From NCBI RefSeq assembly GCF_003352005.1, contig NZ_CP024848.1:1683001-1747000 (forward strand): a stretch of DNA of 64,000 bases. The letters are read 5' to 3'. Positions 18,545-61,389 of the stretch are shown here, one piece after another. Source of the DNA: Oceanobacillus zhaokaii (GTDB lineage Bacteria > Bacillota > Bacilli > Bacillales > Amphibacillaceae). A program made the position numbers and the translations under genes. Every line of letters begins with the position of its first letter. The stretch's first letter is position 1. Below the pieces are notes generated by a model. The model did no database searches, was not told the DNA's origin, and saw only the letters and a program-made list of their open reading frames with translations.

Positions 18545-18622
18545 GTTCTTTTTTCTTGCACGTATGTCAGTAGCCCGCATAAATTATTAGTAAAAGAGAA
18601 CGATTTATGTGGGGTGAATATA

Positions 18623-20211: not shown

Positions 20212-20517
20212 GATATAAAGTGCGAACTAGTAGTAATTGTGATTTCAGATCTGGACAGAAGTTGCTATTCACAAGTCTTTATTCCTTTGCTAAAATTAAA
20301 CCACGTTAGTTAGTGGGTAAGTAATTCTTATGTCTCTAAATTCAGTCCCCTCCCCAGCGGAAGAAATACACGAAGACTACTGGGAGTAACGGCCTCGGTG
20401 AGACTCTGAAGTGCGTTAGCACAAAGAGGCTCACCAGCCGCCCTAAGGTGCGCGTAGTGTATTTCTGGAGCGACCAGCCAGGAAGCAAATATCATCCTAA
20501 GTTAGTTCGGATTTATC
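20212..20517. repeat. Dispersed TIR-bounded element, copy 1
   Basis: The ends are imperfect inverted repeats: GATATAAAGTGCGAACTAG at 20212-20230 and TAGTTCGGATTTATC at 20503-20517. The inside holds a nested palindrome: AGAAATACAC pairs with GTGTATTTCT, and GGTGAGACTC with GAGGCTCACC. The GC-rich block at about 20345-20480 is the same module, inverted, as in the copies at 43 kb and 58.6 kb. There is no ORF of interest in it. Confidence 0.8.
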
Positions 20518-20561
20518 TAACATAGTAGCAAATGATTGATTAAATCTAGAAAACAAAAAAT

Positions 20562-20600
20562 CCTGCAGAGAAAGACTCTGCAGGTCCTTTTGTTTTTTAG
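20562..20600. terminator. Hairpin terminator between repeat copy 1 and the ylbH leader
   Basis: CCTGCAGAG / CTCTGCAGG with a 5-base loop, flanked by A-rich sequence on the left and TCCTTTTGTTTTTT on the right. Either strand could use it. Confidence 0.75.
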
Positions 20601-20637
20601 TATAAAAAAACAAATAGGTAAAGGGAGAGGAGAAACC

Positions 20638-20673
20638 GGAGAAGAACTTATGGGGAAGTATAAGTCCTTCTCC
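20638..20673 (+). other. Stable hairpin of unknown role
   Basis: GGAGAAGAACTTAT pairs with ATAAGTCCTTCTCC (13 of 14 pairs) around an 8-base loop. No T-run follows, so it is not a simple terminator. Confidence 0.5.
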
Positions 20674-20740
20674 GTATTGAAACAACCAAGCTAACAATTA
20701 GTTGAATCATTATGTTATTATGTACAAAGAGAAAAATAAT

Positions 20741-26900: not shown

Positions 26901-26931
26901 TATTTTTGTTTTATTCGTCTCGTTTGTTGGT

Positions 26932-27160
26932 CATATAAAGTCCGAACTATGTAGTTTTTTCAATTGCTCTCTGGCCAGTCGCTCCTGAAATACACATCGC
27001 TTTCCGTGGGGAGCTGGTGAGCCTTATTCCCAAAGGAGTCTCGGTGTGTTTCTTCCACTGGGTTTGTGCCTATACTACTGATTGTTCCGCAACTATCAAT
27101 AAGCTGAAACTCTACAAAAAAATACTGTCCACTTGCTACAATCACAGTTTGTCACTAGCA
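26932..27160. repeat. Dispersed TIR-bounded element, copy 2 (internal deletion)
   Basis: The left end, CATATAAAGTCCGAACTATG at 26932-26951, matches the terminal repeat of copy 1. The core at about 26979-27065 (GCTCCTGAAATACAC ... GTGTGTTTCTTCCACTGG) is a shortened version of module A, lacking the middle palindrome. The right part, GCTACAATCA near 27135, matches the end of module B and is followed by a degenerate AGTTTGTCACT terminus. Confidence 0.65.
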
Positions 27161-27252
27161 TGTTTTCCTATAAATAGCAATATTCTTTTATAAAACAGCC
27201 TATTTTTAATCATAAAAAATGTAAACATGTATTCTAGCTTTCCTATTTTTTG

Positions 27253-34489: not shown

Positions 34490-34544
34490 TATTTGCAATA
34501 GGTAAATCAAGAAAGTATAAAAATTTCCCTGATTAATTTCCATG

Positions 34545-34610
34545 ACAGTAGAAGCCGAGTCCAGCTCCAGCGCCCAAACTAGCTTTAAGCTTTTGTTCGC
34601 GAAACAGTGT
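34545..34610. repeat. Fragment of a common Bacillaceae intergenic repeat between pbpB and spoVD
   Basis: The stretch CCGAGTCCAGCTCCAGCGCC and the following CAAACTAGCTTTAAGCTTTT resemble the TCCAGCTCCAGCGCC repeats seen in many Bacillaceae genomes. It is truncated and lacks the paired right half. It lies between two genes that in B. subtilis are close neighbours. Confidence 0.5.
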
Positions 34611-39515: not shown

Positions 39516-39530
39516 TCCACTATAAGTGCG

Positions 39531-39593
39531 TGTTCAAAAAGGGCCGAGTCGGTAGAAACATCGATGTGCCATTCTTACCGGACTTTTTGAACA
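39531..39593. repeat. Inverted-repeat element between murF and mraY
   Basis: TGTTCAAAAAG (39531-39541) and CTTTTTGAACA (39583-39593) are exact inverted repeats. They enclose CGGTAGAA / TTCTTACCG, also complementary apart from one bulge. The same right half occurs near 54800. It has no T-run for termination. Confidence 0.65.
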
Positions 39594-39633
39594 ACCTTTA
39601 TAACGGACGGTAAAGGTAAGAGGAGGAATAGCA

Positions 39634-43279: not shown

Positions 43280-43553
43280 TTGTAAACTGCGATCTAACAT
43301 TCATATTCTGCTTAATGTCCCACCGCTCCGGAAATACACTTATACGCACCTTAGGGCGGCTGGTGCGCCTCCGCGTGCTGCCGCACTTCGTAGTCTCACC
43401 TAGGCCATACCTCCCGCAGGGGTCTTTGTGTATTTCCTCCACTGGTGACTATGCGTTTTACTATTTTTTATCTACCTCTTTCATAGGATGGAGTGGTATT
43501 TCGCGCTCTTTTACGGCTGCAATCAACGTTGCTCTTATGTAGCACTTTATATA
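43280..43553. repeat. Dispersed TIR-bounded element, copy 3
   Basis: The left end is TGTAAACTGCGATCTAAC (43280-43297) and the right end TAGCACTTTATAT (about 43540-43552), the inverted form of the left ends of copies 1 and 4. Module A (CGCTCCGGAAATACAC ... GTGTATTTCCTCCACTGG) fills about 43322-43445. The end of module B (GCTGCAATCAACGTTGC) is near 43516-43532. It lies where murG and murB stand in B. subtilis. Confidence 0.78.
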
Positions 43554-48959: not shown

Positions 48960-49240
48960 TATATAAAATGCGAACTAAGTAGGAGCAAAGTTGATTTCCG
49001 CTCTGGATAGTCGGGCATCCGGAGGGCAACGCGGTTTGCTCCTTCGGAAGAAGACTACTTCCGATGGATCTTCAGCAGTTGCGTTTCCCGCAGGAGTCTT
49101 GCCCTGTCCTCCGCTACAATCAACGGCGTATAGAGAGGTAATACCGTCGCAACATATGCTCCCTTAAGGTGCGCGTAGTGTATTTCTGGAGCGACTGGTC
49201 GAGAGCTCTTAGCACATAAAACTGGTGCGCACTTTATATC
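48960..49240. repeat. Dispersed TIR-bounded element, copy 4
   Basis: The left end ATATAAAATGCGAACTAAG (48961-48979) and the right end GTGCGCACTTTATATC (49225-49240) are inverted repeats. Module B (GTTGATTTCCGCT ... TCCGCTACAATCAACGG) fills about 48991-49125, with a piece of module A (TAAGGTGCGCGTAGTGTATTTCTGGAGCG) at about 49166-49197. It splits spoIIGA from sigE, and a TATAAT at 49251-49256 lies just past its right end. Confidence 0.85.
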
Positions 49241-50956: not shown

Positions 50957-51080
50957 TGAAAAGCTGAAACGACTGTTCATGTTCAGAGACGGACGCATAA
51001 GCAGGGGACCGAAAACGCGTGGTGTTCCGCGTTGAAGTGTCAACTGCTTATGACGGTAGTCTCTAGAAGTTGAAGCTAGA
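50957..51080. repeat. Large nested palindrome of the GCTC/CATAAGC family after sigG
   Basis: Three nested stems form one long hairpin: AGAGAC (50985-50990) with GTCTCT (51059-51064), CATAAGCAG (50996-51004) with CTGCTTATG (51044-51052), and AACGCG (51014-51019) with CGCGTT (51028-51033). The flanks AAAAGCTGAAACG and GTTGAAGCTAGA also resemble each other inverted. It is like the repeated CATAAGC hairpins of Bacillaceae intergenic regions. Confidence 0.7.
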
Positions 51081-51083
51081 TGA

Positions 51084-51212
51084 ATAAGTATAGCGGACTA
51101 TTCAGTATGTCTAAAACTATAGCTGATTTTACAAATTAAAAAGTTGATGTAAATATTCTTGAGCGACTAGCCTGAGAGCCTTAAGCCCTATACTAGTCTG
51201 CAATTTACATAT
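51084..51212. repeat. Dispersed TIR-bounded element, copy 6 (degenerate)
   Basis: The left end ATAAGTATAGCGGACTA (51084-51100) and the right end CTAGTCTGCAATTTACATAT (51193-51212) are degenerate terminal repeats. The inside has CTTGAGCGACTAGCCTGAGAGC, which aligns with CTGGAGCGACTGGTCGAGAGC of copy 4. It looks like a remnant with most of both modules lost. Confidence 0.55.
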
Positions 51213-55416: not shown

Positions 55417-55454
55417 TCGTATTACAGAATTGTAACATAATATATATAATATAT

Positions 55455-55738
55455 ACGATGACAGAGACAGTATAATGGTAATTGCTGATAAGCGAATCAG
55501 GGGTTGGTGAAAGCCTGATACAGTAATACTTTTAGAAAATCACTCTTGAGTATCCATTAAGAAATTAAGTATTAATGGACGGTATTCCCCGTTATGGAAG
55601 TCGAGTGAATTTAAAAGCATGTATTTCCAGTAAAAAGAGATGCAAGTAAGGCATTTGCCTTCGCTTTCTAAATTTATAAGGGTGGTACCGCGAGTCTTCT
55701 CGTCCCTTTTTGGGATTAGAGGGCTTTTTCTATTTTTA
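55455..55738 (+). ncRNA. T-box leader of ileS (isoleucine)
   Basis: The T-box sequence AAGGGTGGTACCGCG lies at 55678-55692. It is followed by a terminator around CTCGTCCC-TTTTT-GGGATTAG and a T-run near 55735. The Stem I region carries GGTGAAAGCCTGATACAG, and a likely specifier ATC (isoleucine) at 55539-55541 in GAAAATCACTC. Uncharged tRNA-Ile stabilises the antiterminator and allows ileS transcription. Confidence 0.92.
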
Positions 55739-58574: not shown

Positions 58575-58608
58575 TTTAGGCATACTTTGACTTGTTTTTA
58601 GTTATTTA

Positions 58609-59002
58609 GATAAACTGCGGACTAACTTATGAAGATGGATGCTCACGGACCGACCGCTCCGAAAATACACTTCGCTTTCCGCGGGGGGCTGGTGAGCCTT
58701 CTTGTGCTGTCGCACTTCGAAGTCTCACCTAGGCCCTTCCTCCCGTAGGAGTCTTCGTGTATTTTCTACGCTGGGATTGTGTGAATTATAATAGTTAATC
58801 TATTTCCTTATAAGAGAGGATGGAGTCTGCCTCTCTCGTGACCGTTGATTGTAGCGGAGGACAGGAAACTCCTGCGGGAATAGCAACGGCTGAAGATCCA
58901 TTGGAAGTGATTTTCTTCCGATGGAGCAGACCGCGTTGCCCTCCGGATGCGCGACTGTTCGCAGCGGAAATCAACGTTGCGCCTAGTTCGAAGGTTTATA
59001 TC
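58609..59002. repeat. Dispersed TIR-bounded element, copy 5 (most complete)
   Basis: Left end GATAAACTGCGGACTAAC (58609-58626); right end TAGTTCGAAGGTTTATATC (58984-59002), its imperfect inverse. Module A at about 58656-58775 has AAAATACAC / GTGTATTTT arms and an inner GTGAGCC / TCTCACC palindrome. Module B at about 58840-58983 has GTTGATTGTAGCGG / CAGCGGAAATCAACG arms with CCTCCGGA and GATGGAG repeats. No protein is evident. It is the only copy with both modules complete. Confidence 0.88.
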
Positions 59003-60552: not shown

Positions 60553-60569
60553 GAATATAATTATAAATG

Positions 60570-60675
60570 ACCTTTAAGAATAGTCCTGTGAGGCTAAAAA
60601 GGAACGTGACATATATGTGGAGATACATATATCAGAAACCCCTTTTCCTCATGGAAAAAGGGGTTTTCTTGTTCT
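60570..60675 (+). promoter_or_regulatory. pyr attenuator 1 (PyrR-binding leader) before pyrR
   Basis: The PyrR-binding loop AGTCCTGTGAGGCT (60582-60595) is followed by ACCCCTTTTCC / GGAAAAAGGGGT as terminator (about 60638-60666) and TTTTCTTG. In the presence of UMP, PyrR binds the leader and favours termination. Confidence 0.85.
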
Positions 60676-61239: not shown

Positions 61240-61249
61240 ATTATTCAAC

Positions 61250-61352
61250 TTTTAAATAAATCCAGAGAGATTTATAAGGTTGTTTTGAAGGAAATCTGTA
61301 TATATGAGTACAGGTGTACCTCTTTGCATCCTTAGGCAAAGAGGTTTTTTTT
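61250..61352 (+). promoter_or_regulatory. pyr attenuator 2 between pyrR and pyrB
   Basis: The PyrR-binding sequence TCCAGAGAGATTTATAAGG lies at 61261-61279. The terminator is CCTCTTTGC (61319-61327) with GCAAAGAGG (61336-61344), followed by eight T. It gives a second PyrR-UMP checkpoint before the enzymes. Confidence 0.9.
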
Positions 61353-61389
61353 ATGCAGAGAATTTCACTCAAAAGGAGGCATTCTATTA

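Follow-up and report, generated by a model that had tools for sequence, protein, structure and literature searches.

Miniature inverted-repeat transposable elements (MITEs) are already known, modular ones included, and a modular structure is also a property of the BOX elements of Streptococcus pneumoniae. In the descriptions available to us, the bacterial MITEs RUP, NEMIS, ERIC, Bcr1, EFAR, and Nezha are short and non-coding, have terminal inverted repeats, and often lie next to genes (PMC3733652), and the BOX elements are interspersed, strongly structured sequences that have been judged parasitic, with slow present movement (PMC3049150). The repeats bcr1 to bcr18 of the Bacillus cereus group are described as 100 to 400 bp long, with up to 130 copies of bcr1 and a mobility tied to a TTTAT motif (PMC6542083), and the TIMEs, miniature elements derived from Tn3, as carrying 38-bp Tn3-type repeats and making 5- to 6-bp duplications (PMC4133298).

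The stretch of DNA analyzed here (the window, 64,000 nucleotides of the Oceanobacillus zhaokaii genome) contains six intergenic regions that an initial annotation had joined into one element family. We consider it likely, as part of the full explanation developed below, that five of these regions, together with what remains of the sixth, belong to one large MITE family and are mostly decayed copies of it. In its complete form the element runs from the tip GGCTCTTTTC through a terminal repeat of ~60 bp, which ends inwards in ATATAAAGTGCGAACTA, to hairpin A, an AT spacer, hairpin B, and again a terminal repeat. Recognizable 8-bp AT-rich direct repeats flank about half of the complete copies examined.

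The copies are numbered in their order along the window (Table 1). Near their reported ends, the best ungapped alignments to the 18-mer GATATAAAGTGCGAACTA, which the initial annotation gave as the terminal repeat, had 0 (left) and 8 (right) mismatches at the 20212 copy, 2 and 10 at 26932, 4 and 4 at 43280, 2 and 2 at 48960, 7 and 5 at 51084, and 4 and 8 at 58609. Random window positions scored in the same way reached ≤4 mismatches in ~0.065% of draws and ≤7 in ~2%; by this measure both ends are good in copies 3 and 4, a clear end is combined with a degenerate one in copies 1, 2, and 6, and copy 5 has a right end only. The left end reported for copy 5 is not an element end, because the same sequence lies outside the full element in the sister genome G004, whose orthologous spacer has that full element where the O. 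zhaokaii genome (G000) shows an internal deletion. The shared boundaries were accordingly real and above chance for five copies, but spurious at the left of copy 5. Profile matches agreed with the module content first given for copy 1 (A), copy 4 (B plus part of A), and copy 2 (a deleted form). Copy 5 had been said to have both modules and copy 6 to be deleted, but the profiles placed both modules in copy 6 and gave no match to A or B in copy 5, from which we conclude that these two labels had been exchanged; copy 3, whose content had been left undescribed, carries A.

Table 1. Element copies in the window and their parts (positions count from the first letter of the 64,000-nucleotide stretch).
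Feature	Positions	Strand	Details
Copy 1	20212..20517	+	G-type inner end left, 20212-20229 (exact 18-mer); degenerate right inner end
Module A hairpin in copy 1	20353..20478	-	Profile match, E 1.7e-33
Left target-site duplication of copy 2, TATTTTTG	26901..26908	.	7/8 identical to 27201-27208
Copy 2 with outer tips	26909..27200	+	Left tip eroded; right tip GGCTGTTTTATAAAAGAATATTGC on minus strand, 3 mismatches
Module A in copy 2, internally deleted	26974..27062	+	Profile match, E 2.5e-17
Right target-site duplication of copy 2, TATTTTTA	27201..27208	.	Same flank: TATTTTTA in G004, TATATTTA in G001
Copy 3	43280..43553	+	Two inner ends, 4 mismatches each
Module A in copy 3	43321..43445	+	Profile match, E 9.8e-30
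Copy 4	48960..49240	+	T-type inner end 48960-48977, G-type inner end 49223-49240
Module B in copy 4	48988..49124	-	Profile match, E 4e-38
Partial module A in copy 4 (41 positions)	49158..49199	-	Profile match, E 4.5e-6
Copy 5, right-hand remnant only	51131..51212 (start approximate)	+	G004 alignment breaks between 51130 and 51156
Copy 6, most complete	58607..59002	+	T-type end 58607-58624, module A, AT spacer, module B, degenerate G-type end 58985-59002
Module A in copy 6	58649..58775	+	Profile match, E 1.2e-39
AT-rich spacer with short palindrome (AGAGAGGATGGAGTCTGCCTCTC) in copy 6	58776..58842	+	Sequence
Module B in copy 6	58844..58977	+	Profile match, E 2.1e-43

Repeats of other kinds were also observed in the window. 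A second, unrelated inverted-repeat element (TATAAGTGCGTGTTCAAAAAGG ... GGACTTTTTGAACA) lies at 39516-39633, and the spacer at 18545-18613, a near-clean empty site, is filled in G004 only, with ~206 bp that are missing in G000 and G001. A strong hairpin repeat (AGACGGACGCATAAGCAGGGGACCG ... CTTATGACGGTAGTCTCT; RNA fold z -4.9) at 50970-51085 had no Rfam match above the gathering score and has a second similar-looking unit alongside it in G004. Part of another spacer repeat (GTCCAGCTCCAGCGCCC ... GCTTTTGTTC) occupies 34490-34606; it is longer at that site in G001, and similar sequence was seen by eye in other G001 spacers and in G005. Rfam further identified two PyrR binding sites (60567-60672 and 61245-61354), a ylbH leader (20552-20677), and a T-box leader (55449-55710), all of them ordinary.

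Across the 4.10-Mb single-contig genome, the 18-mer occurred at 97 sites with ≤3 mismatches, against 4 for the reversed control pattern, and the family is thus larger than first reported. Around these sites and in the window (271 kb searched, in 85 pieces), we found 43 inverted pairs with 69 to 397 bp between inner ends, one of which (1571984-1572105) overlaps another pair and is probably spurious, as well as 36 strong unpaired ends. With the copy at 58609-59002 as query, at least 44 matches were obtained in the same genome, 40 of 170 first-look candidates being scored. The reading against which the initial annotation had set its own, namely, that the six regions are unrelated GC-rich hairpins with chance edge repeats, could draw on the spurious left end of copy 5. 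It is refuted for five of the six regions, given the 97 versus 4 sites, the common modules that the profiles detected in five of the six copies, and the 8-bp target-site duplications (TSDs) in related genomes described below, and we grant it virtually no probability.

Aligned end rows (n = 102) were mostly of two types, whose labels depend on one base plus its flanks: a G-type, AGTT-GATATAAA (62 rows), and a T-type, TTTGTTGCTATT-TATATAAA (37 rows). Counted from the element rows, 37 of the 43 elements combine one G with one T end, four have two G ends, and two have two T ends. The statement that no ORF is conserved across the copies was borne out, with 36 elements lacking any ORF of ≥90 amino acids that covers >30% of the element; the remaining seven are covered by ORFs of 90 to 127 amino acids running along the element, which we take as incidental.

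Copies in other genomes revealed conserved sequence outside the 18-mer. The true element ends lie roughly 25 to 45 bp outside it, and the 18-mer makes up the innermost third of the terminal repeat; the inverted repeats of the initial annotation are therefore real, but they do not mark the end of the element. The terminal repeat profile has the consensus TCTTTTCTTAAAGTTTGTTGCTTTTTAAAATTCGCAGTTGATATAAACTGCGAACT over 56 positions, which with the tip GGC before it and an A behind it makes 60 bp. Better-preserved copies in related genomes join the ~60-bp terminal repeat and its tip to 8-bp AT-rich duplications. At ≤3 mismatches, 25 of 156 family genomes contained the tip pattern, with 66 matches in G006 and 31 in G086, and every genome listed had 0 control matches. 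The strict tip pattern had no match in the O. zhaokaii genome, where the inner 18-mer is conserved and only some of the ends still show a recognizable outer block; searched alone there, the outer block gave 11 sites versus 7 for the control, being too eroded to be useful.

For the analysis of TSDs, 70 loci yielded 45 with a tip pair and, once pairs with >14 summed tip mismatches and duplicates were removed, 43 distinct complete elements, all picked without regard to their flanks. The flanks matched at 8/8 positions in 12 elements and at 7/8 in 10, compared with 0.23% and 2.3% of mispaired flanks, and 21 elements had ≤6 matches. Exact flank repeats of other lengths numbered three at 7 bp, two each at 3 and 4 bp, one each at 6 and 9 bp, and none at 5 or 10 to 12 bp. 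An earlier, smaller set gave an 8/8 repeat in 4 of 9 rows (8 loci) with both tips, one-base shifts being allowed; its mispaired flanks never reached 8/8 and reached 7/8 in 10.8%. Among the window copies, only copy 2 yields a TSD (7/8). Because of the terminal repeats and the 8-bp target duplications, we regard the element as a transposon-derived MITE: its terminal inverted repeats have fixed ends, its TSD has a fixed length, and no transposase gene lies inside. The original suggestion of a MITE-like element needing a transposase in trans gains support from the ~60-bp terminal repeats, the 8-bp TSDs, and the shortness of the elements, which leaves no room for a transposase.

A DDE transposase acting in trans would have moved the element by its tips, with insertion at an 8-bp stagger. 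No such gene was found beside the copies, and the autonomous, transposase-bearing copy that the initial annotation envisaged did not turn up, as both tips (≤7 mismatches) enclosed the transposase at 0 of 30 PF01610 loci and 0 of 30 PF00872 loci. ISL3 insertion sequences make 8-bp duplications, and the ISL3 family (PF01610) had matches in 82 of 156 genomes of the same bacterial family, with none in the O. zhaokaii genome, G001, G004, G020, G002, G019, or G086. When the best inverted repeat was sought at the 30 ISL3 loci, 10 had a GG(C/T/G)TCT tip (by eye, GGCTCT or GGTTCT in 8 and GGGTCT in 2), and the other 20 had no clear ends. Despite this likeness of the tips, the repeats of the two diverge after about six bases, and we rejected an ISL3 partner, or a MITE derived from ISL3, at these loci. 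ISL3 remains a lead because of the tip and the duplication length.

The IS256/mutator family (PF00872) had a match in 9 of 13 tip-rich genomes, and the 30 loci fetched were all examined for tips and 12 of them for inverted repeats and modules. The only locus with modules on both sides, L393, holds an IS256-like pseudogene behind module A, which we read as an insertion and not as the partner, and an apparent 2.4-kb pair in G004 turned out to consist of two short elements lying apart. At 11 of the 30 tip loci, of which one offered little sequence, the tip had no partner. There, ORFs of ≥100 amino acids were read by eye and three were scanned with Pfam, giving an IS110 transposase (L349), a SAP-domain protein, and one ORF without a match. 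The IS110-family gene (PF01548, PF02371) begins at about position 1591 of L349, just behind a truncated module A with an intact tip, and was also read as an insertion; the module hairpin may be an IS110 target.

Alternatively, the GC-rich modules could be REP-like palindromes moved by RAYT (Y1/HUH) transposases, the terminal repeat being incidental. Y1 transposases (PF01797) occur in 21 of 28 genus genomes, including one match in the O. zhaokaii genome, and far more genomes contain the modules than contain the 18-mer. However, module A, B, or C was found near 0 of 28 fetched Y1 loci (mostly 1.1 to 1.7 kb on each side), also when the search was repeated with profiles and a positive control, and G004 has many ends (50 sites at ≤2 mismatches) yet no Y1 match. 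Complete elements are moreover surrounded by 8-bp TSDs, which are not expected of Y1 transposition, as REP/RAYT units move without target duplication. On these three grounds we disfavor Y1 transposition and hold it to be very improbable. As a separate observation, Y1 (RAYT-like) genes in several genus genomes adjoin a ComM/YifB-like Mg-chelatase family gene, named from its translations (L185, L191, L198, L200, L201, and L202).

Comparison of sister genomes showed that the frames stay at orthologous positions, whereas the interiors differ in content and orientation. In the ileS-lspA spacer, the O. zhaokaii copy has the order T-end, A, spacer, B, G-end. The G004 copy corresponds to it in outer flanks and ends but has its interior the other way round. 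Compared with the fetched G000 sequence, this G004 interior scored highest against its orthologue in inverted orientation (309 bits versus 239 for the next). Its A part taken by itself, however, is more similar to a different G000 copy (90.8% over 174 bp), and the interior may instead have been replaced from elsewhere. At the 48960 site, the G004 and G001 spacers keep parts of the frame and hold a different interior; that of G004 matches a non-orthologous G000 copy best (339 bits), and that of G001 resembles it by eye. Also by eye, the interior (module A) at 20212 is reversed between G000 and G004, and the two genomes agree in orientation at 26932 and 43280, with G001 reversed at 26932. Altogether, G000 and G004 differ in orientation at 3 of the 5 comparable window sites. 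Of the spacers at the window sites, the emptiest (G001 at 20212 and 51084) are deletion-like and not clean empty sites. The initial annotation had the copies differ in orientation and in which modules survive; deletion is real, but the variation also consists of exchange and inversion of interiors.

In G001, the copies L154 and L155 share 240 + 66 bp (306 bp) of identical sequence, interrupted only by one block of 7 versus 8 bp (GCGGAAA in one copy, TAAGGTGC in its counterpart). Beyond the inner repeats the two are unrelated; L154 has outer tips and an 8/8 duplication. In this one pair of copies the crossover points are bounded to the inner repeats. We propose that, after insertion, dispersed copies (43 pairs and 36 single ends) would have exchanged and flipped their interiors by homologous recombination, probably gene conversion, that crossed over within the inner terminal repeats. 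As these repeats are inverted, a donor interior could be installed either way round. Gene conversion is suggested as the agent by the mosaic structure of the copies, as opposed to having been observed. Recombination between dispersed copies through the inverted inner repeats is the simplest account, although a dedicated recombinase is possible.

Such a recombinase would use the inner inverted repeats as crossover sites to flip or swap the hairpin cassette, which would make the element invertible or a minimal kind of shufflon, and the outer tips would only record how the frames first spread. In keeping with this, 3 of 5 comparable window copies are reversed between G000 and G004, and the O. zhaokaii genome has conserved the inner 18-mer, with the outer block recognizable at some of the ends. 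Interior orientation relative to end type is also near even there, with A facing the G end one way or the other in 14 versus 18 cases (32 of the 37 one-G-one-T elements carry A, counted from rows), although the two types of end are told apart by a single base with its flanks. Against it, content changes as well as orientation, as at 48960, and the 7/8-bp block differs within an otherwise identical interior, as patchy gene conversion would leave it. We therefore think this unlikely, and there is a correspondingly small chance of its bolder form, a two-layer machine in which an outer frame once transposed with 8-bp duplications and an inner ATATAAAGTGCGAACTA-bounded cassette continues to be flipped and passed between about eighty frames through dedicated site-specific recombination, a genome-wide shufflon of structured, non-coding cassettes.

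When named genomes were scanned for the point where the terminal repeat joins module A, 31 stretches were obtained, every one of them from Oceanobacillus, Virgibacillus, or Lentibacillus. The 18-mer occurred at ≤2 mismatches in 13 of 28 genus genomes (up to 61 sites) and at ≤1 mismatch in 17 of 159 genomes, far fewer than the modules: with at most 5 candidates scored per genome, module A (58652-58774 as query) had matches in 115 of 156 family genomes and 35 of 46 genera, and module B (58842-58976) in 105 genomes and 36 genera. Part of this gap is sequence drift, judging from TATAAACTGCGACGTA-like sequence at the same place in other genera. The ileS end was found beside lspA in 25 of 28 genus genomes, and eight of these loci had an A or B profile match (G000, G001, G004, G006, G016, G020, G022, and, with a partial A, G002). 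The other 17 had none, G021 showing a possible scrap by eye, and their empty spacers include six of 132 to 166 bp. Of the three genomes without a located ileS end, G010 has a B match.

Covariation was assessed on 55 aligned copies of module A (93 full-length copies, 86 diverse, 70 retained) and 28 of module B (34 full-length, 32 diverse); truncated and surplus rows of A were omitted. The 32-pair structure of A has 95.6% of cells paired, a figure favored by the derivation of the structure from the same alignment, and sliding the partner by 1 to 3 columns lowers pairing to 38 to 55%. Both sides had changed in 19 of the 32 pairs (121 cells), with 0 of 500 shuffles reaching any of five measures, and changes on one side only were less frequent (25 cells in the table), a pattern suggestive of pairing at the DNA level or of repair templated on the other arm, neither of them proven. 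In module B, where 12 pairs were predicted, double changes occurred in 4, a weaker signal. The earlier impression that the modules have structure worth keeping, whether as RNA or as DNA, finds its backing in the compensatory changes of A.

The alignments also reveal a core common to both modules, CTTTCCGCGGG ... CCCGCAGGAGTC in A and its reverse complement in B. One side of this core has two alternative forms, CGCGG or CCTTAGG, counted 81 versus 28 beside AATACAC and 50 versus 10 elsewhere in the fetched loci. A third insert, module C, sits inside A or B in several copies. In L146, L148, L157, L269, and L393, module C (GACAAGGAAAGCTTCGACAGCGTTACATC...) breaks one of the two other modules around CCCGCAGGA / AAGGAGTCTCC, in the manner of a small insertion of its own.

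The covariation of module A could instead mean that the hairpins are regulatory or structural RNAs recruited by the host, such as terminators or mRNA stabilizers, whose copy number reflects their usefulness. Folded as single-strand DNA, A and B of copy 6 do better than all shuffles (z -5.4 and -5.2), but A of copies 1 and 3 folds weakly (z -2.1 and -1.5), and covariation can also come from repair templated on the other arm. Rfam gave no match over the six copies at the gathering score in the whole window, and for copy 6 at E up to 1 only two weak matches far below that score. Copy 1 comes after a terminator-like hairpin, and the neighboring genes are unbiased, with 25 tandem, 8 convergent, and 7 divergent arrangements versus 70:17:18 for spacers of >150 bp (rough ORF caller). 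Interiors also differ or are absent at orthologous sites between close species. Host recruitment is thus quite improbable in our view. Within the MITE explanation, the hairpins were probably kept by selection, either for transposition or for being harmless in intergenic positions, or else by repair of one arm on the template of the other; they can be explained without a host function, which would appear to be absent.

No description of this Oceanobacillus family was found in the literature searched (mostly non-subscription journals), where a 12-letter piece of the core occurred only in three papers on other subjects. Modules A and B are present in most genomes of the family examined, yet have neither an Rfam match nor a literature description that we could find. 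The orthologous frames with exchanged or reversed interiors amount to a natural assay of recombination between dispersed short bacterial repeats. The in-step changes of the two arms, in a mobile and probably function-free element, offer a test of covariation arising from inter-arm DNA repair against selection on RNA.

Compared with known systems, so far as their descriptions go, the element shares with the bcr repeats a length of 100 to 400 bp and a home in the Bacillales, but differs from their TTTAT motif in that its duplications are 8 bp of varying AT-rich sequence (PMC6542083). Like the TIMEs it is non-autonomous, with inverted repeats, AT-rich targets, and mosaic derivatives, but its repeats of ~60 bp, its tip, and its 8-bp duplications set it apart (PMC4133298). 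Bhal-1 of Bacillus halodurans (74 bp, 36 copies), known to us by description, could be related (PMC2267715). The element resembles BOX in being interspersed and strongly structured; unlike BOX as described, it has a terminal frame with a demonstrable TSD and modules in most genomes of a family (PMC3049150). With the other bacterial MITEs it has in common its short length, lack of coding capacity, terminal inverted repeats, and frequent position beside genes (PMC3733652). It is distinguished from their descriptions by terminal repeats of ~60 bp, by two distinct hairpin modules (A with clear covariation) found in 35 to 36 of the 46 genera of one family, and by interiors that swap and flip, and we file its novelty as that of a MITE whose frame stays while its structured interior is traded and flipped.
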